Source of the DNA: Bacteroidota bacterium
GTDB lineage: Bacteria > Bacteroidota > Bacteroidia > Cytophagales > Cyclobacteriaceae
Assembly: GCA_024280115.1 (NCBI GenBank)
Contig: JAJRQT010000045.1
Span: 1 to 64,000, forward strand
DNA length: 64,000 nt
Direction of reading: 5' to 3'
Shown here in pieces: positions 28,655-38,018 of the stretch. Within the stretch, counting starts at the first letter, position 1, and every line of letters begins with the position of its first letter. The position numbers and the translations under genes were made by a program. Under the pieces are notes generated by a model. That model worked only from the letters and a program-made list of their open reading frames with translations, had not been told where the DNA came from and did not search any database.

Positions 28655-31000
28655 TTGCGACAGAATTTACTTCTTCTTCTCATATTTGGAACTTTGTTTT
28701 TATTTATCTGGTCAATGACCGGAAATAAATCTATAAGCGTTGAAGGGTCATCGAAAAGGCAAAAATTACCGAATGAAGTAAACTTCAATTTCCATGTAAA
28801 ACCCATACTTTCCGATAAATGCTTTGTTTGTCATGGTCCTGACGTCGGTACAAGAAAGGCCGGTTTAAGGCTTGATATAGAAAAAGTTGCCAAAGCTGAA
28901 TTAAAAGAAAACCCGGGGAAATTTGCAATTGTTCCTGGAGATGTTGAAAAAAGTGAACTTGTATCAAGGATTTTTTCGGACGATGAAAATATAGTGATGC
29001 CAGCCCCGGAATCTAACTTGAAATTAAGTGATGAAGAAAAAGAAATATTAAAAAAATGGGTGGAGCAGGGAGCTAAGTATGCACCCCACTGGGCTTTTTC
29101 CCCACCTGAAAAGCCCGATCATTTTCCAAAAGTTGAAAATGAACCCTGGGTAAATAATGAAATTGACTATTTCATTTTAAACAGGATTGAAGAAGTTGGT
29201 TTGGAATTGTCAGAAAAAGCACCCGATACCAAATTGATCCGGAGGTTAAGTTTAGATCTCACTGGGTTACCTCCAACGCCGGAAGAACTTGAAAAATTCA
29301 CGCAAAACAATGGGGCATTCAGTTATGAAGATTTAATCGATTTTTATCTTGCCAAGCCCGCTTATGGCGAACAGATGACGAGGGAATGGCTGGATGTTGC
29401 CAGGTATGCTGATTCTCATGGCTATCAGGATGACAGCTATAGAACTATGTGGCCGTGGCGGGATTGGGTAATTCACGCTTTTAATGAAAATATGCCTTAT
29501 GACCAATTTTTAACATGGCAGCTTGCTGGTGATCTATTGACCAATGCGACAAAAGAGCAAATATTGGCCACCGGTTTCAACAGGAATCATCCCATCACCC
29601 AGGAGGGTGGAGTGATCGATGAAGAATATCGATTTACCTATGTGAGCGACAGGACGAATACGCTTGGTAAAGGGGTTCTTGGTGTTACACTCGAATGTGC
29701 AAAATGTCATGATCATAAATATGATCCATTTTCCCAAAAGGAATATTATGGTATGTATGCCTTTTTTAATAATGTAAATGAAAAAGGACTTCAGATGGAT
29801 GCAGTGCAGGCAAAAAACCAGAAGTACTATGCAGATGCTCCTTATATAAAGATTGATGATGCGGATTTGACAGGTATTCTATCCTTTATAAATAAAACAG
29901 ACACTGTGCCTGTAAATGTCATGGTGATGAATGATTCTACGATCAGGGATACTCATTTGCTATCCAGGGGAAACTACGATGCCCCTTCGGATTTAGTTAG
30001 TGCATCCACACCGGCAGCGATTATGAAATTCCCTGAAGATTATCCTAAAAACAGGATGGGCCTTGCCATGTGGTTAACTGATAGCAAAAACCCCCTGACC
30101 GCCAGGGTATTTGTGAACAGACTCTGGGCCATGATATTCGGACAGGGGATTGTCCTAACCACTGAGAATTTTGGCGCTCAGGGTTCATTGCCTACCCATC
30201 CTGATTTGCTGGACTGGCTTGCTGTTGATTTTATGGAGCACAATTGGGATATAAAGTATATTTTGAAAAAGATGGTTACCAGCGCTACCTATCAGCAATC
30301 TTCTGTCATCACACCAGATATGAAAAAAGCGGACCCGGAAAATATTTATTTGGCCAGAGGTCCAAGATTCAGGTTGGGAGCTGAGGTGATTAGAGATTAT
30401 GTTTTAACTACAAGTGGTTTATTAAATGACGAAATTGGTGGCCCGAGTGTAAAGCCCTATCAGCCACCGGGTTTATGGGAAGAAACAAATGCAGGGGGCA
30501 ACCGGGGTATTCTGACAAAATATATCCCTGATTCCGGAGACAAACTCTACAGGAGGTCTTTGTATACCTTTTGGAAAAGAACTTTACCTCCACCTTCCAT
30601 GGCCATCTTTGATGCCCCAAATCGAGATTTATGTGAAGTCCGAAGACAAAAAACAAATACCCCGTTGCAGGCGCTCGCATTGCAAAATGACGTTCAGGTA
30701 TTGGAAGGAGCGCGTGTTTTAGCTTCAAAAATAAATGAAAAAAAATTAGATGATGTAGAGGCTTTGAAAACTATTTTCACAAGTATATTACTCAGGGATC
30801 CGACTGAAAATGAGTTGGGAGTTTTAACAGAGTACCATAAAAGTTACCTGGAAAAATTTATGAGTGACACTGAGGATGCTGAGCAACTAATATCTGTTGG
30901 TCAGTTTTCAGAAAGTATTTCTGATCCTGCTGGTACTGCCGCATTAATGATGGTTGCGCAAGTATTGTACAACCTGGATGAAACCATAACCAAAGAATAA
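28655..31000 (+). CDS. Planctomycete-type cytochrome C / DUF1549 / DUF1553 protein
   Basis: 781 residues. The start appears to be a TTG at 28655, giving RQNLLLLLIFGTLFLFIW as signal; the frame is closed by a TAA 15 bp upstream and the next ATG would remove the signal. Domains: PSCyt1 with one haem site (CFVCHGPD, about residue 57), then DUF1549 (WVNNEIDYFILNRIEEVGL, LSLDLTGLPPTPEEL, ARYADSHGYQDD, CAKCHDHKYDP) and DUF1553 (NPLTARVFVNRLWAMIFGQGIV, RRQKTNTPLQALALQND). Such proteins are periplasmic and usually encoded with DUF1501 proteins in polysaccharide loci; their reaction is unproven. It starts a tight three-gene operon. Confidence 0.86.
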   Translation: MRQNLLLLLIFGTLFLFIWSMTGNKSISVEGSSKRQKLPNEVNFNFHVKPILSDKCFVCHGPDVGTRKAGLRLDIEKVAKAELKENPGKFAIVPGDVEKSELVSRIFSDDENIVMPAPESNLKLSDEEKEILKKWVEQGAKYAPHWAFSPPEKPDHFPKVENEPWVNNEIDYFILNRIEEVGLELSEKAPDTKLIRRLSLDLTGLPPTPEELEKFTQNNGAFSYEDLIDFYLAKPAYGEQMTREWLDVARYADSHGYQDDSYRTMWPWRDWVIHAFNENMPYDQFLTWQLAGDLLTNATKEQILATGFNRNHPITQEGGVIDEEYRFTYVSDRTNTLGKGVLGVTLECAKCHDHKYDPFSQKEYYGMYAFFNNVNEKGLQMDAVQAKNQKYYADAPYIKIDDADLTGILSFINKTDTVPVNVMVMNDSTIRDTHLLSRGNYDAPSDLVSASTPAAIMKFPEDYPKNRMGLAMWLTDSKNPLTARVFVNRLWAMIFGQGIVLTTENFGAQGSLPTHPDLLDWLAVDFMEHNWDIKYILKKMVTSATYQQSSVITPDMKKADPENIYLARGPRFRLGAEVIRDYVLTTSGLLNDEIGGPSVKPYQPPGLWEETNAGGNRGILTKYIPDSGDKLYRRSLYTFWKRTLPPPSMAIFDAPNRDLCEVRRQKTNTPLQALALQNDVQVLEGARVLASKINEKKLDDVEALKTIFTSILLRDPTENELGVLTEYHKSYLEKFMSDTEDAEQLISVGQFSESISDPAGTAALMMVAQVLYNLDETITKE

Positions 31001-31003
31001 ATT

Positions 31004-32470
31004 ATGGAATTAAAGGAAAAAATAGCTGATGAAAAGCTGAATATAAACCGGAGACATTTCTTTTCTAAATTAAGTGTTGGTTTGGGCACAGTTGCCCTTG
31101 GATCATTGATGATCCCGGATTTGTTTAAAAGGGGAGGCGCTGGAATTGAAGAGGGTATGTTAAAGGTTGGAATTCCCCACTTTGCTCCAAAGGCTAAGCG
31201 AATCATTTATTTGTTCCAGGCGGGCGCCCCGTCTCAGTTTGAGTCTTTTGACTATAAACCGCTACTCCGAGAGAGGATGGGGGAGGATCTTCCCGAATCG
31301 ATTAGAAATGGTCAGCGGCTCACGGGGATGACGGCCAGCCAGGATAGTTTTCCACTTGTCGCTCCTTTTTCCGGTTTCAAGCAATATGGGCAAAACGGTA
31401 CCTGGATAAATGACTATTTTCCTTATACCGGAAAAATTGTGGATGAGATATGCATCATCAATAGCATGCATACAGAGGCCATCAATCACGATCCTGCCAT
31501 CACATTTTTTCAGACGGGGAATCAAAATTCAGGAAGACCCAGCATGGGATCGTGGATGAGCTATGGTTTGGGAAGTGAAAATAAAAATTTACCCGCATTT
31601 GTTGTTCTAACCTCCCGGGGAAAAGGAAATAGCCAGGGTTTGTATTCAAAGCTGTGGTCCAGTGGATTTCTGAATTCGAAGCACCAGGGTGTTTTGCTCA
31701 GGTCGGGGAAAGATCCGGTGCTTTATCTCAATGATCCTGCAGGTGTATCAAGGGAAGACAAAAGGGTTATAATAGATAAAATTGCCGAGCTAAATGACCA
31801 GCATTACAAGCAAACGGGTGATGAGGAAATAAAATCGAGGATTGCTCAGTATGAGATGGCCTTCAGGATGCAAATGTCTGTCCCGGAAGTGATGGATATT
31901 AAAAAAGAACCTGAGTCAATTATTAAAATGTATGGAGCAGAGGCGTTAATTCCAGGAACATTCGCAGCAAATTGTTTGCAAGCCAGAAGGCTTGCTGAAA
32001 ATGGTGTCAGATTTATTCAGCTATATCACCAGGGCTGGGATCAACATGGTAATTTGCCAGGTGAAATGTCGATGCAGGCCTTGGATGTTGACCAGGCCTC
32101 GGCAGCTTTGGTACTGGATTTGAAACAGCGCGGAATGTTGGATGATACACTGGTGATTTGGGGTGGTGAATTCGGCAGAACAAATTATTGTCAGGGAAGA
32201 TTCCGGCCCGATAATTATGGCAGGGATCATCATCCCAGGAGTTTCAGTATCTGGATGGCCGGTGGTGGTGTAAAAAAAGGAATTACCTATGGGCAAACAG
32301 ACGAATTTGGATATAATATTGTAAAAGATCCGGTGCATATAAATGATTTTCATGCCACCTTGTTGCATCTTATGGGCGTAAATCATGAACACCTTACCTA
32401 CAAATATCAGGGCAGAAGGTTCAGGTTGACGGATGTAGCTGGAAATGTTGTAAAAGGTATTTTAGCATAA
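31004..32470 (+). CDS. DUF1501-family Tat-exported protein
   Basis: 488 residues. NINRRHFFSKLSVGLG near the N-terminus is a twin-arginine signal. The body is DUF1501, an alkaline-phosphatase/sulfatase-like fold: RIIYLFQAGAPSQFESFDYKP, NSMHTEAINHDPAITFFQTG, GWDQHGNLPG, VIWGGEFGRTNYCQG and GRDHHPRSFSIWMAGGG. The His/Asp residues in these segments could bind metal. No catalytic Ser/Thr/Cys has been established for the family. It lies 3 bp after the DUF1553 gene and 3 bp before the next; the pair is nearly always encoded together and presumably works as a unit. Confidence 0.9.
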   Translation: MELKEKIADEKLNINRRHFFSKLSVGLGTVALGSLMIPDLFKRGGAGIEEGMLKVGIPHFAPKAKRIIYLFQAGAPSQFESFDYKPLLRERMGEDLPESIRNGQRLTGMTASQDSFPLVAPFSGFKQYGQNGTWINDYFPYTGKIVDEICIINSMHTEAINHDPAITFFQTGNQNSGRPSMGSWMSYGLGSENKNLPAFVVLTSRGKGNSQGLYSKLWSSGFLNSKHQGVLLRSGKDPVLYLNDPAGVSREDKRVIIDKIAELNDQHYKQTGDEEIKSRIAQYEMAFRMQMSVPEVMDIKKEPESIIKMYGAEALIPGTFAANCLQARRLAENGVRFIQLYHQGWDQHGNLPGEMSMQALDVDQASAALVLDLKQRGMLDDTLVIWGGEFGRTNYCQGRFRPDNYGRDHHPRSFSIWMAGGGVKKGITYGQTDEFGYNIVKDPVHINDFHATLLHLMGVNHEHLTYKYQGRRFRLTDVAGNVVKGILA

Positions 32471-32473
32471 TTT

Positions 32474-34621
32474 ATGAGATTAAAAGTTGTTAAGATTTTT
32501 TTTGATTTTGGAATCTATTCTTTAGCTATATTACTGGCATTTTTTTTAGTTTTTGAAAGATATTTGGAATTGCCATCTTTGGTCAGGTGGTTGGGGCATT
32601 GGCATTTGCTGATTCTTCATTTCCCCATCGTTATGATTCTTGTAACTATCGTTCAGTATTGGCGCAATGACAAGGCTTTTTCCTGGTATCTCTCATTAAC
32701 TACACTGCTAACCTTAGTTTCAGCTATAACCGGATTACTATTAAGTCTTGAAGGAGGAGCGAAAGGAGACCTGATTTTAACCCATCAATGGTTGGGAGTT
32801 TCCGTTGCATTTCTTATGTCATCCTGGTATTGGTTTTCTCAAAATCTTTCAATTCCAAAAGTATATTTTAAGGTAATACAAAGTGGATTGGTGGTATTAA
32901 TTGTTCTAACCGGGCACTATGGGGGAATGGTTACACATGGAAAAGAATTTCTGACTTTTGATCCTACAGGATCAGATGAAACTACAATCATTTCGGAAAA
33001 CCCGAATATTTATACAAATATCGTTCAGCCGGTTTTAGATAAAAAGTGTGTTTCCTGTCACAATACAAATAAATCAAAGGGGGAACTGGTGTTGGGTAAT
33101 TTTACTTCTTTAATGAAAGGTGGAGAGTCAGGAAGTCTTGTCGATGTGGATAATCCGGGTAAGAGTGAGTTGCTTCAGAGAATTCAATTTCCAATTGATC
33201 ACGAGGATCATATGCCTCCGGAGGAGGAAAAGCAACTCACCGAAGTAGAATTGGGCATAATTAAAGGCTGGGTGGAGCAAGGCGCGCCGGGCGAATTATA
33301 TTTTAGTGAACTTATAGACACGATTCCTTTATATAGCATTGTTCAGTCCAAAATTGAAGAAAGCAAAAAAAGTACCTGGAGTCATTTACCAGAGATTTCT
33401 GATGACCGGATCAATGAATTATCTTCTGTTTATTGCACAATCCGGCGAATTTATAGCAATACCAATGCGCTTCAGATATTGGTTTTTCCTCATAGTTCCT
33501 ATAGTCCGGAATTATTGAGAAATCTTAAGCCGATTGCGAAGAATATTGTGGAACTCAACCTCAGTAACTTGCCCCTGAGCTCTGATGAGTTGAAAACTAT
33601 TAGCTCTTTTTCAAATATTGAGATACTAAAAATGAGTGGAACACCAATAAATGATGATGATTTTAAAAGCATTGGTAATTTGGGAAATCTATCGATATTA
33701 AAGGTTTATGATACACAACTTGGTGACGGTGCAATCGGTCAATTGACGGCTCTTTCTGGGCTCAAAGAACTTTACATTTATAATACGCTTTTTACTAAAG
33801 AAGGAATCTCTGATTTAATTCATAAAAAGGAGGGCTTGAATGTCGTTACTATTTCCGATAAAGCCCTTGAATTCAAATCAGTTTTACCACTGTCTGAAGT
33901 AGAGCCGCTGAAATACTTCTTTAGGGAGCCCTTCTTTGTGAAGCTCAAACACCCGTTGGATGGTATTGACCTTAATTATACAATTGATGGGAGTGTTCCG
34001 GATATTAATTCACCGGTGAAGGAAGACAGTATATTTATTGATAAAAGAATGTTGTTGAAATATTTTGCTTCCAAAACCGGTTGGGGATCCAGTGAAGTTG
34101 ATTCAGTTTTATATTTAAAATCAACTCGGGCGCCGGACGAATATGAATTGGGAGAAAAGCCAAATTTGAAATTTGGAGAACGAGTAAATTCATTACTATT
34201 CGATCTTGAAAAAGGGCCTGACAATTTTGATGATGACGCATGGATGGCATTCAGAAATGAAAACTTTGTTTTGTCATGTTCCTGGAATGAAGCAGTCAAT
34301 TTGGAATCTGTTATTCTAAGTTCTTTAATCCATCCGGATCCATATATTTTTCCACCATCATCTATTGAGATCAGGGGAGGGCTTGATGAAGATAATTTGA
34401 AGCCGTTAGGTTCCTTGCGACCATCTCAATTGTCAGAACGTCAAAATCAGCAATTGAAGTATTTTGAGTGTAATGTCGAATCTACCCCTATAAAATATAT
34501 TAAAATCATCGTTAGGCCATTACAGAAAATTCCCATGTGGCATCAGGGAAAAGGTGAGCGGGGGTGGTTTTTTATTGATGAGGTTATTTTTCAAGAGCGG
34601 ACATCAGCAAAACCCATCTAA
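32474..34621 (+). CDS. DUF2231-like membrane anchor, cytochrome c, LRR-like and C-terminal beta domains
   Basis: 715 residues. Residues 1-165 have about four membrane helices with WLGHWHLLILHFPIVMIL, as in DUF2231 proteins. A PSCyt1-type domain follows with one haem site (CVSCHNTNKSKGELVLG, about residue 195) and HMPPEEEKQLTEVELGIIKGWVEQGAPGE. Residues about 340-450 are leucine-rich-repeat-like. The stretch VKLKHPLDGIDLNYTIDGSVP resembles the beta-hexosaminidase C-terminal (CHB_HEX_C) domain, and the end looks like a discoidin-type domain. It probably holds electron transfer and glycan contact on the outer face of the inner membrane, as the third member of the DUF1553-DUF1501 operon. Confidence 0.78.
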   Translation: MRLKVVKIFFDFGIYSLAILLAFFLVFERYLELPSLVRWLGHWHLLILHFPIVMILVTIVQYWRNDKAFSWYLSLTTLLTLVSAITGLLLSLEGGAKGDLILTHQWLGVSVAFLMSSWYWFSQNLSIPKVYFKVIQSGLVVLIVLTGHYGGMVTHGKEFLTFDPTGSDETTIISENPNIYTNIVQPVLDKKCVSCHNTNKSKGELVLGNFTSLMKGGESGSLVDVDNPGKSELLQRIQFPIDHEDHMPPEEEKQLTEVELGIIKGWVEQGAPGELYFSELIDTIPLYSIVQSKIEESKKSTWSHLPEISDDRINELSSVYCTIRRIYSNTNALQILVFPHSSYSPELLRNLKPIAKNIVELNLSNLPLSSDELKTISSFSNIEILKMSGTPINDDDFKSIGNLGNLSILKVYDTQLGDGAIGQLTALSGLKELYIYNTLFTKEGISDLIHKKEGLNVVTISDKALEFKSVLPLSEVEPLKYFFREPFFVKLKHPLDGIDLNYTIDGSVPDINSPVKEDSIFIDKRMLLKYFASKTGWGSSEVDSVLYLKSTRAPDEYELGEKPNLKFGERVNSLLFDLEKGPDNFDDDAWMAFRNENFVLSCSWNEAVNLESVILSSLIHPDPYIFPPSSIEIRGGLDEDNLKPLGSLRPSQLSERQNQQLKYFECNVESTPIKYIKIIVRPLQKIPMWHQGKGERGWFFIDEVIFQERTSAKPI

Positions 34622-34696: not shown

Positions 34697-34749
34697 TGTG
34701 AATAAATGTGTGAATAAGTAATAATATTGGTGAATAAATATGTGAATTA
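34697..34749 (+). repeat. Iteron-like cluster of DnaA-box-type 9-mers, left
   Basis: TGTGAATAA occurs exactly at 34697-34705 and 34709-34717, with 8-of-9 matches at 34729-34737 and 34741-34749. Each pair is spaced 12 bp start to start and the two pairs are 32 bp apart, so they form direct repeats in one orientation. The reverse complement TTATTCACA fits the DnaA-box consensus TTWTNCACA. Binding by DnaA is an inference. Confidence 0.7.
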
Positions 34750-34797
34750 GGCATAACAAAAGGTGCAAAAGTTGTGGGGAAAACGAAGTTATTTTTG

Positions 34798-34828
34798 TTG
34801 GTGTGTAAATATATATATAATATCTTTG
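34798..34828 (+). promoter_or_regulatory. Promoter of non-coding RNA unit A
   Basis: TTG (34798-34800), a 20-bp spacer and TATCTTTG (34821-34828) form an exact Bacteroidota-type promoter, TTG / TAnnTTTG. The start of similarity between units A and B follows 6 bp later, as expected of a transcription start. Confidence 0.7.
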
Positions 34829-34834
34829 ATTCAT

Positions 34835-35130
34835 CAAGTGAGAGATAAAAGGCTGGGAGTACAATTCCGGATTATGATTGAAAACTTGTGAACAAGATGT
34901 GAAGGAACCGAAGCCGCAAGGTGGAAGTGTGAAACGGGTCAAACCGCAGAAATGTCGAAGTTCATCATTCGAAGCTTAAAGGTTGAGAAAGAAGGGTTTT
35001 TAATCTAAGGTTATGATCTCGGGCAACTGGGTGAAAAGTCATAATAACTGTAGCTTGGCGCGAATTGAAGACCACGGTCGTCTCTTCGTGAAGCGGGAAA
35101 ATATTCGAACAGAATGTCTTCCCGCTTTTG
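34835..35130 (+). ncRNA. Putative structured non-coding RNA, unit A
   Basis: About 296 nt from just after the promoter at 34798-34828 to the terminator ending near 35130. It is not coding in any frame that makes sense. It shares with unit B (35553-35842) a 5' block (CAAGTGAGAGATAAAAGGC), a middle block around GTGGA and CAAACCGC, and a 3' block at about 35022-35056 (GGCAACTGGGTGAA, then CTTGGC). Internal pairings include CTGG/CCGG near 34853-34870 and TCGAA/TTCGA near 34956-34972. Conserved order, equal length and matching control signals argue for a real RNA. It does not fit RNase P, tmRNA, 6S or SRP RNA as far as those motifs can be judged by eye. Confidence 0.65.
35091..35130 (+). terminator. 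Intrinsic terminator of unit A
   Basis: AAGCGGGAA (35091-35099) pairs perfectly with TTCCCGCTT (35119-35127), with an extra inner ATTC/GAAT pairing, followed by TTTTGTTTT. Confidence 0.85.
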
Positions 35131-35134
35131 TTTT

Positions 35135-35510
35135 ATAACGGTGCTATTTCATCTGTCCATTTTTTTCCCAGATTTTAGACTTGATCCAGTAATTGCCGGA
35201 TTTATTCCGGCATCTGTTGGCGATCAATCTCCCATAATCCAAGCTATTGGAAAAGCATGTAAATTCCATGGAATATTAAGAAGGACGAGGCTGTTGAATT
35301 TTGCTATTTGGGCCTGGCTATTCAGGCTACTACCAAACGCAAACAGTCCCCGGAATAAATCCGGGGATTATGAAGCTACACACAGGTGGTCTCGTCTTGT
35401 AATGTTGACATTTTGTGGAAAACTCCTATACACTTATGGAAAACATGTTAATATCTCATGGGATAACGTAATATTTTATGTGTATAAACTGTGTAAAACA
35501 TAGTGCCAAA
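35135..35510. other. Spacer between RNA units A and B with hairpins
   Basis: This 376-bp stretch holds several short perfect stems: TGCCGGA/TCCGGCA near 35192-35211, GCCTG/CAGGC near 35311-35327, and TCCCCGG/CCGGGGA near 35346-35368. AGACGAG-type arms lie near 35283 and 35392. A 129-codon open frame crosses it (35114-35503) but starts inside the unit A terminator and reads through the hairpins, so it is not called a gene. The hairpins may be remains of a small mobile element. Confidence 0.45.
35414..35498 (+). repeat. Cluster of DnaA-box-type 9-mers, right
   Basis: TGTGGAAAA (35414-35422), TGTGTATAA (35479-35487) and TGTGTAAAA (35490-35498) all fit the reverse complement of TTWTNCACA exactly and share the orientation of the left cluster. 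TATGGAAAA at 35435 matches 8 of 9. The cluster ends 15 bp before the promoter of unit B, as the left cluster precedes that of unit A. Confidence 0.65.
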
Positions 35511-35513
35511 TTA

Positions 35514-35545
35514 TTTGGGAGATAAAAGCAGATCACCTACTTTTA
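35514..35545 (+). promoter_or_regulatory. Promoter of non-coding RNA unit B
   Basis: TTTG (35514-35517), a 20-bp spacer and TACTTTTA (35538-35545) match the Bacteroidota promoter with one mismatch. Spacing and distance to the RNA start equal those of unit A. Confidence 0.6.
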
Positions 35546-35552
35546 GCATTAC

Positions 35553-35842
35553 CAAGTAAGGGATAAAAGGCCGGAATTAAAGCGCCGGGCAATTGACAAA
35601 ATTTGGAATTCAGTGTGTTAATGTTCATCGCACGCGAGAGCGGTGGATGAAAAGGTTACTACCTCAAACGCGCAATGTTTCCACAGAAGAAATTGAAAAA
35701 TTGAACCTGAATGTGTTGTTATTTGTTTGATTTTCAGGCAACTGGGATGAAGTCCATAACAGTAACTTGGCATGATTCAGCAACTACGGTTTCTGGAGAA
35801 TGGAGCGGAAAAATATCTGACCGGATTATTTTTCCGCTTTTT
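35553..35842 (+). ncRNA. Putative structured non-coding RNA, unit B
   Basis: About 290 nt, a diverged paralogue of unit A. Shared blocks are CAAGTAAGGGATAAAAGGCC at the 5' end, GTGGATGAAA in the middle, and GGCAACTGGGATGAAGTC with AACTTGGCATGATTCAG near the 3' end. A stem CCGG(N10)CCGG lies at about 35571-35588. Between the blocks the sequence has drifted well below half identity while length and order are kept, which suggests selection on structure. It ends with its own terminator. It is convergent with the PQQ dehydrogenase gene, whose stop lies about 30 bp beyond. Confidence 0.65.
35804..35842 (+). terminator. Intrinsic terminator of unit B
   Basis: AGCGGAAAAATA (35804-35815) pairs perfectly with TATTTTTCCGCT (35827-35838) around an 11-nt loop and is followed by five T. 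Confidence 0.88.
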
Positions 35843-35873
35843 GCTTTTAGAAGTTCGCTATTTTTAATTGATA

Positions 35874-38018
35874 CTAAGGCAACGAAAAGGCTATATAGCT
35901 ATCCCCTGGTTTTGTACCCATTTTTCCCCCTCCGCATGCAATGACGACATATTGCTTTCCATCAACTTCGTATGTTGCCGGAGTGGCATATCCCCCGGCA
36001 GGTAGTTTGTATTTCCAAAGTTCCTCTCCGGTTGTTTGGTCAAACACTCTGAAATGTTCGTCTTTAGAAGCTCCAATGAATAATAATCCACTTTCAGTTA
36101 ATATTGGCCCGCCGTAATTTTCCGTACCGGTTTTTGGAATGCCTTTTTCTGATAGTTCTTCAATTTCTCCCAATGGCACCTGCCATAAAATTTCACCTTT
36201 GTTTAGATCAATCGCATTCAATGTGCCCCATGGCGGTTTCATAGCAGGGTAGCCAAAAGGGTCGAAAAATCTATTGTATCCGGTATGAGTAAATGGCACA
36301 ATTCCTTTATTGTCATCTATCCCAACAGAGTGAGGGTCCATGGTTTCTTGTTTGCCCGCAATAAAGTCCATCACTGCTTTAATCCTTTTTTCTCCAATAT
36401 GATTCCAACTCGGCATGAAGTTTTTACCGTTTGAAATGATCTCCTTTATTTCTTTATCCTTGTATTTGTTGGTAATTCCCCTAAGCGTTGGGTAGGTTCC
36501 CGTGATATCACCTTTCATATCTTGTCCATGGCACATGGCACAGTTTGCCAGATAGGTTGATTCTCCGAGACTTACAGGATTTTCTGATGTTAGAGGATTG
36601 AGATCTATCATGGTAAGTATCCATGCCATTTCGTTTGCATTTGTATAAAGTATTTTTGATTTCGGATCGAAGGCGGAACCACCCCATTCGCCACCCCCGT
36701 CAAATCCCGGGTAGATGACAGTTCCCTGTTTGCTCGGAGGAATAAATTGTTCTCCTGTTCGAACATTGGCAAGAATCCCGGCGATGTAATTATGCGATTC
36801 CGGGCTGATATCAGTTATGTTTTCCATGGTCAGTTGCTGACCACAAAATGGTGGAGGTTTAGTAGGAAATGGTTGAGTAGGCCAGGCTTCTTCACCTTCC
36901 AGGTCTGTAGGTTTCACAGGACGCTCTTCGATGGGGAATAATGGTTTCCCTGTTTCCCGATCGAATAGAAAGATGAAACCGGATTTGGCCACCTGGGCAA
37001 CAGCATCGATTTCTTTTCCATCGTGGACGACAGTAATAAGATTTGGTGGTGAGGGAAGATCCCGGTCCCAGAGATCGTGATGAACTGTTTGAAAATGCCA
37101 GATCCTTTCTCCTGTTTTTACATCCAGAGCCAACAGACAATTAGCAAATAAATTTGCTCCTTTTCGGTTGCCACCATAAAAGTCATAGGAGGCAGATCCT
37201 GTCGGTACGAACAAAATCCCACGTTGCTCATCAAGTGCAAATCCAGCCCAGGAATTTACGCCTCCAATTGATTTGTAAGCATCCTTTGGCCATGTTTCAT
37301 ACCCAAATTCGCCCGGTTTTGGAATGGTACGGAAGGTCCAACGGACTTTTCCTGTTCTCACATCGTAGGCTCTGATATATCCTGGTGCTGCCAGGGCGCC
37401 TTCCGATACAGCCGTTCCCATTATCAGGAGATCTTTGAATATTATTCCGGGCGTCCTGGAAACAACATATAGATTTTGCGCCCATTCCCCAAGTTTAGAC
37501 TTTAGTGAGGCTCTTCCAAAAATCCCAAATGTTTGAATGGGGTAACCAGTATCAGCATTCAGTGCAAAAAGATATGGGCCTGCTGTAAAAAATATTCTTT
37601 TATCATTGCCGTCTTCCCAATAGACCACACCGCGGCTTACATGCATTGATATTTTGGCGATGGCAGCTGGGTCATATAACCATTTCTGTTTGCCGGTTGC
37701 TGCATCAATAGCAAAAACTTTTAATTTTGGTGTTGATCCATACATAATCCCGTCAATGATTATCGGGTTGCATTGTATTTGTGTGTTGCTCCTTGAATCG
37801 GTATCTCCTGTTTTATATTCCCATGCTACTTTCAACTGATCAACATTATCTCTGTTGATTTGAGAAAGGGGAGAATAGTGGCTGTTGTGTTTATCTCCCA
37901 GATAAATTGGCCAGTTTTTCCCGGTTTTGAATTTTGGATTTTCTTTTTCTGAACATGAATAAATTCCAAGGAAACTAAAGATTAGTGCAAATAAAAAAAG
38001 ACGGTGATATGTAGGCAT
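35874..38018 (-). CDS. PQQ-dependent dehydrogenase with inserted cytochrome c domain, lipoprotein
   Basis: 714 residues. The N-terminus ends in the lipobox IYSC (about residue 22), so it is a lipoprotein. The bulk is an eight-bladed quinoprotein propeller: NWPIYLGDKHNSHYSPLSQIN, KVAWEYKTGDTD, QCNPIIIDGIMYGSTPKLKVFAIDA read in pieces, KTGERIWHFQTVHHDLWDRDLP and the closing YVVIACGGGKMG. A c-type cytochrome is inserted late in the propeller (LANCAMCHGQDMKG, about residue 500). This layout fits membrane-type glucose/polyol dehydrogenases that pass electrons from PQQ to haem. Substrate unknown. It is the last gene of the catabolic run, 28 bp after the kinase. Confidence 0.88.
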   Translation of the reverse strand: MPTYHRLFLFALIFSFLGIYSCSEKENPKFKTGKNWPIYLGDKHNSHYSPLSQINRDNVDQLKVAWEYKTGDTDSRSNTQIQCNPIIIDGIMYGSTPKLKVFAIDAATGKQKWLYDPAAIAKISMHVSRGVVYWEDGNDKRIFFTAGPYLFALNADTGYPIQTFGIFGRASLKSKLGEWAQNLYVVSRTPGIIFKDLLIMGTAVSEGALAAPGYIRAYDVRTGKVRWTFRTIPKPGEFGYETWPKDAYKSIGGVNSWAGFALDEQRGILFVPTGSASYDFYGGNRKGANLFANCLLALDVKTGERIWHFQTVHHDLWDRDLPSPPNLITVVHDGKEIDAVAQVAKSGFIFLFDRETGKPLFPIEERPVKPTDLEGEEAWPTQPFPTKPPPFCGQQLTMENITDISPESHNYIAGILANVRTGEQFIPPSKQGTVIYPGFDGGGEWGGSAFDPKSKILYTNANEMAWILTMIDLNPLTSENPVSLGESTYLANCAMCHGQDMKGDITGTYPTLRGITNKYKDKEIKEIISNGKNFMPSWNHIGEKRIKAVMDFIAGKQETMDPHSVGIDDNKGIVPFTHTGYNRFFDPFGYPAMKPPWGTLNAIDLNKGEILWQVPLGEIEELSEKGIPKTGTENYGGPILTESGLLFIGASKDEHFRVFDQTTGEELWKYKLPAGGYATPATYEVDGKQYVVIACGGGKMGTKPGDSYIAFSLP

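Follow-up and report, generated by a model that had tools for sequence, protein, structure and literature searches.

A predicted family of structured RNAs with DnaA-box-like arrays upstream of most copies in Cytophagales

Introduction

Two similar segments of about 300 nt lie near the middle of the window, the whole 64,000-nt stretch of Cytophagales DNA analysed here. The initial annotation read them as tandem paralogous non-coding RNA genes that might represent an undescribed structured family. Whether the two segments, named W1 and W2, are RNA genes, to which family they belong, what controls them and how their product might act were the questions of this analysis. To our knowledge, the non-coding RNAs of Bacteroidota are poorly mapped.

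Predicted transcription units W1 and W2

Sequence analysis and matches to the covariance model R1 showed two units where they had been annotated, each consisting of a promoter, a folded RNA and a terminator:

34798..34828, forward strand: promoter of W1, with TTG (34798-34800), 20 bases and the -7 box TATCTTTG (34821-34828), from the sequence
34834..35136, forward strand: structured RNA gene W1 including the terminator, with an R1 match at 34833-35091 (246 bits) and the terminator placed by sequence
35093..35135, forward strand: intrinsic terminator of W1, GCGGGAA...TTCCCGC followed by a T-rich run, from the sequence
35515..35545, forward strand: promoter of W2, with TTG (35515-35517), 20 bases and the -7 box TACTTTTA (35538-35545), from the sequence
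35552..35849, forward strand: structured RNA gene W2 including the terminator, with an R1 match at 35551-35803 (175.5 bits)
35805..35849, forward strand: intrinsic terminator of W2, from the sequence

The RNA starts had been put at 34835 and 35553; the terminal helix P1 places the structured RNA one base earlier, at 34834 and 35552, and the rest of the placement stood. W1 and W2 could be aligned over their whole length, with an identity of 52% in an alignment of 38 sequences. Both are preceded by TTG, 20 bases and a TAnnTTTG-like -7 box, the last base of which deviates in W2; these elements were taken to be promoters on the assumed Bacteroidota promoter consensus. Each unit has its own GC-rich terminator hairpin followed by a T-rich run. 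The initial annotation saw no sensible protein encoded, and the single listed ORF of at least 60 aa between the units (35114-35503) was without a Pfam match. Folding of the single sequences against shuffles gave a modest z of -1.45 for W1 and -2.78 for W2; since single-sequence folding is modest, the case for an RNA rests on comparison. At 28655-34621 of the window, this Cytophagales genome carries a gene cluster in the style of planctomycetes, with PSD1/PSCyt2, DUF1501 and PSCyt1.

Fold and covariation

An alignment of 17 full-length copies was given a hand-made structure of 46 pairs. In this alignment, 93.3% of the cells were paired, two-sided changes occurred at 32 of the 46 pairs, and 114 double-change cells were counted against 36 in shuffles; none of 500 shuffles reached any of these values. 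When one strand was moved by one column as a sliding control, pairing was halved. A mutual-information scan of 38 long members, blind to pairing, returned helix pairs in all of the top eight ranks; at lower ranks, column pairs outside the structure were also high, and the ninth pair suggests an extension of helix P7. The initial annotation had staked its reading on covariation, which was found to be strong for the whole fold and good for the internal module M, in agreement with the mutual information.

The RNA is closed by the long-range helix P1 (YCAAGU with RCUUGR), within which lie the near-invariant strands GAGRGAUAAAAG and UAACWGU and the hairpins P2 and P6. Module M and hairpin P5 lie within helix P7, in which only 76.5% of the cells pair. 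Beyond P1 follow hairpin P8, with a YACG loop, and then the terminator. An outer P6 helix of the W1 fold was dropped, as no consistent support was seen by eye. The outermost P1 pair over 30 diverse members was CG in 12, UA in 10, UG in 6 and AU in 2, and P1 and P8 were retained in members with a diverged or shortened middle. The elements in the window are:

34834..34839, forward strand: 5' strand of P1 in W1, pairing with 35053-35058, by covariation
34853..34870, forward strand: hairpin P2 of W1, by covariation and the mutual-information scan
35018..35031, forward strand: hairpin P6 of W1, CUCGG-GCAA-CUGGG, by covariation
35053..35058, forward strand: 3' strand of P1 in W1, by covariation
35059..35090, forward strand: hairpin P8 of W1, with the YACG loop, by covariation
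35552..35557 and 35765..35770, forward strand: P1 strands of W2
35771..35802, forward strand: hairpin P8 of W2

On this comparative evidence, W1 and W2 almost certainly belong to a real family of folded RNAs.

Module M and its copy number

Module M is a three-way junction of about 64 nt, composed of a stem, GAAGGRG, a hairpin, UYUGARACGG-loop-CCGCAGAA and a closing stem. It was placed in the window as follows:

34893..34958, forward strand: module M of W1 (GAAGG...UGAAACGG...CCGCAGAA), by covariation and a match to model R3 (62 bits, W1 being one of its 20 training sequences)
35611..35676, forward strand: diverged counterpart of module M in W2, by alignment, with no R3 match at E 0.05

Module M had 50 double-change cells against 16.6 in shuffles, a value reached by none of 500, and its two-sided pair count was reached by 11 of 500 shuffles. 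The outer stem was paired in only 72% of the cells because its register shifts. For the training of R3, 13 of the 38 long members gave no usable segment, and 20 of the 25 usable ones were taken; the five not taken were W2, L053, L054, L050 and the second copy of L090.

A search with R3 over 47 sources gave 47 matches in 27 sources. W1 and most other long copies had one module, and the RNAs of genus g114 had four (L092 and L095), three (L093, L094 and L096) or two (L102, which is the same locus as L084, and L156). R3 found no module in W2, L053, L054 and the second copies of L051, L090, L091 and L098, nor in any short or class-level member tested. Because 20 of the 47 sources had no R3 match, module M cannot be the sole functional part of the RNA. 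Repeated modules were about 100-220 nt apart. The sequence of L094, followed from start to terminator, had one promoter and one terminator, and sequence pieces of the other multi-module copies suggest the same arrangement there.

Distribution, paralogy and gene neighbourhood

BLASTn analysis of W1 revealed matches in 12 of 98 relatives' genomes, its own included, and the full-length ones had 66-79% identity. W2 had matches in 15 of the 98, its own included: one full-length ortholog (G002, 68%), one good partial match (G004) and, for the remainder, mostly short, weak and chance-like matches.

Model R1 was trained on a set that contained both W1 and W2, with L018 and L012 left out. Its genome tallies, like those of the broader model R2, are lower bounds with rough E-values, because 7-8 candidates were scored per genome (the copy in G009, later scored at 47 bits, was missed): at least 75 of 245 genomes and 34 of 84 genera in the family of the window (E 0.001, weak matches included); at least 32 of 291 genomes in the order at E 0.01 (20 of the same family, 9 of the small-genome family f8 and 3 weak others); and at least 26 of 247 in the class at E 0.01, many of them weak (3 of the same family, 7 of f31, 6 of f25, 6 of f44 and 4 single others). 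In this undercounting scan, the majority of the genomes had no R1 match, and the distribution was patchy, with 0-4 matches per genome. Model R2 gave poorer E-values than R1, and in a draw across the phylum it matched 4 of 296 genomes, all of the family of the window. By sequence comparison, the RNA family appears to span several families of one bacterial class. With the terminator, the long form is typically about 300 nt, and lengths ranged from about 215 to 620 nt.

W1 shared 77% identity with its ortholog in G002 and W2 shared 65%, against 52% between W1 and W2, and the two orthologs in G002 lie on different contigs. Of the annotated tandem paralogy, the paralogy therefore stood and a recent local duplication did not, since orthologs are more identical than W1 and W2 and occupy separate contigs in G002. 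W1 and W2 are old paralogs.

In the window, G002 and G003, W1 or its ortholog is next to a PSCyt1 gene. The W2-type copy faces a PQQ dehydrogenase gene in three genomes, those of the window, G002 and G004; in G004 this copy was assigned by position (56% identity to W2). In G004, the W1 ortholog lies beside a steroid-dehydrogenase gene with no PSD cluster between them; dependence on the PSD1/DUF1501 cluster was ruled out, as G004 keeps the RNA without the cluster. Peroxiredoxin-like neighbours occurred at four loci only and were judged coincidental. Because neighbours differ between genera and the orientation to them is mixed, a role in cis is unlikely. A riboswitch or cis-acting leader was rejected on the gene maps, which showed no conserved downstream gene and a terminator followed by convergent or unrelated genes. 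Neither a conserved neighbour nor a target hints at how the RNA acts.

Several further copies were observed. In family f8 (L137-L144, genomes of 1.2-1.6 Mb), most had two copies; at 5 of the 8 loci, the copies flank one gene, which in L137 is a BNR-repeat gene by Pfam, while the L144 copies are adjacent, L142 has one copy and a remnant, and L143 has one. A partial, decayed copy (34 bits) lies at 12493-12592 of L091, followed downstream by an intact one at a distance of about 300 nt. Remnant-like copies were seen at 5155-5226 of L142 and 1839-2007 of L072. At 1648-1820 of L198 (G015), a strongly diverged possible second RNA (R1, 14.7 bits) lies behind a DnaA double box.

Comparison with known RNA classes

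No recognisable RNA class had been seen in the initial annotation, and a search with Rfam 15 at the gathering score agreed, giving no matches in the window or in the loci of 20 relatives. When 34750-35900 was scanned permissively, four weak Rfam matches were all that appeared. ARAGORN found no tRNA or tmRNA gene in the window, by which tmRNA was excluded. For 6S RNA, neither RF00013 nor RF01685 matched anything in the window, and no 6S RNA was found in 12 relatives including G000, where only RF00013 was informative, RF01685 being silent in control genomes too. An RNA of mobile elements, as with GOLLD and ROOL, was rejected, since W1 had no BLASTn match in phage and plasmid records; one viral-contig match to the RNA-start pattern looks coding and had no R1 match.

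The combination of strong covariation with no Rfam match at threshold supports the undescribed structured RNA family that had been suggested. In the available text of the open literature on Bacteroidetes structured RNAs, DnaA with small RNAs, DnaA boxes in Bacteroidetes and 6S RNA in this group, this RNA was described in none of the papers among the matches listed. Independently transcribed structured RNAs are a known genre, and the newness proposed here is that of the RNA family and its wiring.

DnaA-box-like arrays upstream of the RNA

Arrays of 9-mers resembling the DnaA box precede both promoters in the window. Boxes were scored over eight fixed positions:

34697..34781, forward strand: array of W1, TGTGNATAA-like 9-mers in the direction of transcription, from the sequence and family-wide statistics
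34697-34705 and 34709-34717, forward strand: W1 boxes, both exact
34729-34737 and 34741-34749, forward strand: W1 boxes, 7 of 8
34762-34770 and 34773-34781, forward strand: W1 boxes, weak, 6 of 8
35414..35498, forward strand: array of W2, DnaA-box-like 9-mers, from the sequence
35414-35422, forward strand: W2 box, 7 of 8
35435-35443 and 35446-35454, forward strand: W2 boxes, weak, 6 of 8
35479-35487, forward strand: W2 box, exact
35490-35498, forward strand: W2 box, 7 of 8

Across the family, 106 upstream regions were collected (copies with 120 bases upstream, internal modules of one RNA not being counted separately) and reduced to 89 by a 75% identity filter. Alignment of the 106 regions on the RNA start showed recurrent TGTGGATAA-like words. 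In the 89 non-redundant regions, TGTKNAWAA occurred 142 times forward and never in reverse; in shuffles, the forward count averaged 8.8 and never exceeded 16. Box positions piled up at -60/-61, -71/-72, -83, -93/-94 and -104/-105, and the 11-bp phasing of 162 sites had an R of 0.80, a value that did not exceed 0.19 in any of 1000 random draws. With one mismatch allowed (7 of 8), a forward box was present in 76 of the 89 regions and a reverse box in 6. Exact head-to-tail pairs with a gap of 2-3 bp were found in 31 of the 89.

The consensus of the derived matrix was TGTGGATAA, the reverse complement of the DnaA box TTATCCACA. Within the window, TTATNCACA occurred 8 times against 3.25 expected, and 3 of the 8 were in the arrays of W1 and W2. 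Judged from these sequences, the upstream 9-mers are very probably DnaA sites that control the RNA.

Thirteen of the 89 regions had no box at 7 of 8 or better, and about half of these had, by eye, a different TCATYGGTA-like element. At L128, L129, L135 and L152-L155, a TCATYGGTA/ATGATN4GTCAT-like element was seen by eye near -45 to -65 instead of boxes. The regulator may have been swapped in such copies.

Box pairs elsewhere in the genomes

A strict double-box pattern matched 29 sites in 118 genomes of the family, and its reversed control matched 1. R1-confirmed RNAs tied with dnaB as the commonest strict double-box target, with 7 of the 29 at the RNAs and 7 before dnaB. The others were at a contig end beside a gene that usually adjoins dnaB (1), at an origin-like site (1), at a divergent parA-like gene (1), at a divergent XerC/D-like recombinase gene (1), at dprA (1, lying 544 bases upstream with a small ORF between), at a UPF0047 gene (2, one identified by Pfam and one by eye) and at unassigned loci (8).

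With a looser pattern, 39 genomes yielded 29 matches, which fall at 27 loci; some of the matches are due to chance, because the reversed control gave 9. These 27 loci comprised 6 R1-confirmed RNAs, 3 sites before dnaB, 1 each at dnaN, dnaE, nrdB (divergent) and uvrA, 2 sites that are origin-like by box density only, and 12 unassigned. The two scans overlap, with G000, G008, G015, G018 and G022 having matches in both. At the nrdB, parA-like and recombinase loci, the boxes point away from the gene. It was the looser search that led to the RNA copy of G009.

Individual loci were also recorded. Tandem boxes stand before dnaB in nine genomes of one family over both scans (L217, L222, L223, L228, L229, L230, L184, L181 and L182), and boxes lie near dnaN, dnaE, nrdB and a parA-like gene in single genomes (L176, L189, L170 and L224). 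In L221 and L238, of two genera, a UPF0047 gene (that of L238 identified by eye) has a double box within it or next to it.

Domain IV of the DnaA encoded in the genome keeps GGRDHSTVIHA and aligns with PDB 1J1V, which we take to be the E. coli DnaA-box complex. Box pairs 2-3 bp apart near a promoter, the pattern sought for a DnaA regulon, were found in the sequences. According to the available text of PMC11317965, E. coli DnaA prefers box pairs 2-3 bp apart, which matches the spacing here. A DnaA regulon for Cytophagales can be drafted from these box sites, as a prediction from sequence.

Proposed mechanism and alternative explanations

Taken as a whole, the observations are best explained by a trans-acting, multi-branched structured non-coding RNA of the DnaA regulon, a reading that we consider likely. 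Comparison shows independent units, a conserved fold (P1, P2, P6 and P8, with M in many long members) and phased boxes upstream of most copies, and the box-bearing promoters suggest an RNA tied to the replication cycle. DnaA protomers would sit on the arrays in pairs, head to tail and along a single face of the DNA, starting at about -60 and continuing upstream, and this binding would control transcription of the RNA. Activation is likelier than repression, since the arrays stop at a fixed distance before reaching the -33 element. Under DnaA control, the RNA level would consequently rise or fall with DnaA activity. The RNA would then work in trans, and its near-invariant junction motifs most likely bind a protein; for a trans-acting, protein-binding RNA, the sequences give a chance somewhat short of even. 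The number of modules could set the binding capacity, making the RNA a sponge or a scaffold that links the replication state to other processes. More tentatively, and on balance doubtfully, the RNA may be an arm of replication control: a modular RNA, switched on by DnaA, would capture a replication or cell-cycle protein or serve as its scaffold, and in this way would act back on initiation or tie it to metabolism, with a strength tuned by module and gene copy number.

Two alternatives concern the boxes. In E. coli, datA and DARS are sites of DnaA titration and reset, and the loci described here could likewise work as DNA, the site merely happening to sit at an RNA promoter. Several boxes per site and often several sites per genome would suit such a role; however, the boxes run in one direction and keep a fixed register with the start, and an RNA fold under selection is not needed for pure titration, which leaves this reading improbable. 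There is as little chance that another factor with a DnaA-like site binds the 9-mers. T frequently replaces the second G of the box (39%), as in TGTTGATAA, which such a factor might explain, but the same variants stand before dnaN and dnaB, and both the gene set and the 2-3 bp spacing match DnaA.

Other alternatives concern the action of the RNA. A family of trans-acting, base-pairing sRNAs for sugar and polysaccharide genes, as FopS/GibS in Bacteroides, would account for the paralogous copies and for the many copies near sulfatase, SDR, SMP-30 and GntP-like genes (names assigned by eye). This is unlikely, as no neighbour is common to most loci, G004 retains the RNA in the absence of the neighbouring PSD cluster, the neighbours in the small f8 genomes are accA, an S41 protease and BNR proteins, and DnaA boxes are ill-suited to a nutrient signal. 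That the RNA is the Cytophagales equivalent of 6S RNA, a regulator of RNA polymerase, is very unlikely. It has a long-range closing stem, and the 6S slot may be open because the 12 relatives yielded no 6S RNA; but the 6S-type rod with a central bubble ending in a closing stem is absent, the fold is multi-branched with a separate hairpin (P8) and the terminator outside P1, and a patchy family of 0-4 matches per genome does not fit.

The preferred reading, an RNA of the DnaA regulon, would add a structured RNA family that occurs in several families of one class and whose regulatory input can be tested. If it is true, RNA is a channel by which replication initiation in these bacteria reaches the rest of the cell. 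The phased arrays would offer a promoter system for how DnaA oligomers control transcription, and the natural variants with 1-4 modules a ready dose series.

Comparison with known systems

CsrB and RsmZ are protein-titrating RNAs whose repeats are small GGA hairpins. Repeated modules in one RNA could titrate a protein in the same way, a sponge action that is conjectural here; unlike theirs, the present repeat is a three-way junction of about 64 nt, repeated in one genus. OLE, GOLLD, ROOL and raiA are large structured RNAs of unknown or special action. The present family is like them in its big conserved fold and its predicted own transcription, and differs in that W1, W2 and the loci of 20 relatives match no Rfam model at threshold.

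As described in the available text of PMC8959179, CcnA of Caulobacter crescentus is likewise a non-coding RNA linked to replication and cell-cycle control, and its gene holds three weak DnaA boxes. It is presumably activated by CtrA and acts on CtrA accumulation and perhaps on gcrA translation (PMC8959179, same text). By that description it is set apart from the present RNA as a 182-nt, alphaproteobacterial RNA located at the origin. FopS/GibS of Bacteroides thetaiotaomicron, which act with RbpB, are also multicopy paralogous non-coding RNAs of Bacteroidota with their own promoters (PMC11697453, available text). They differ, as described there, in a common R1 seed sequence, a single-stranded 5' start and the repression of glycan transporters, and that text mentions no DnaA arrays such as those of W1 and W2. 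The DnaA double-box targets of E. coli share with the present loci TTATCCACA-like box pairs 2-3 bp apart; compared with the targets covered in the available text of PMC11317965, the arrays here are longer, keep phase with the promoter and belong to an RNA gene.
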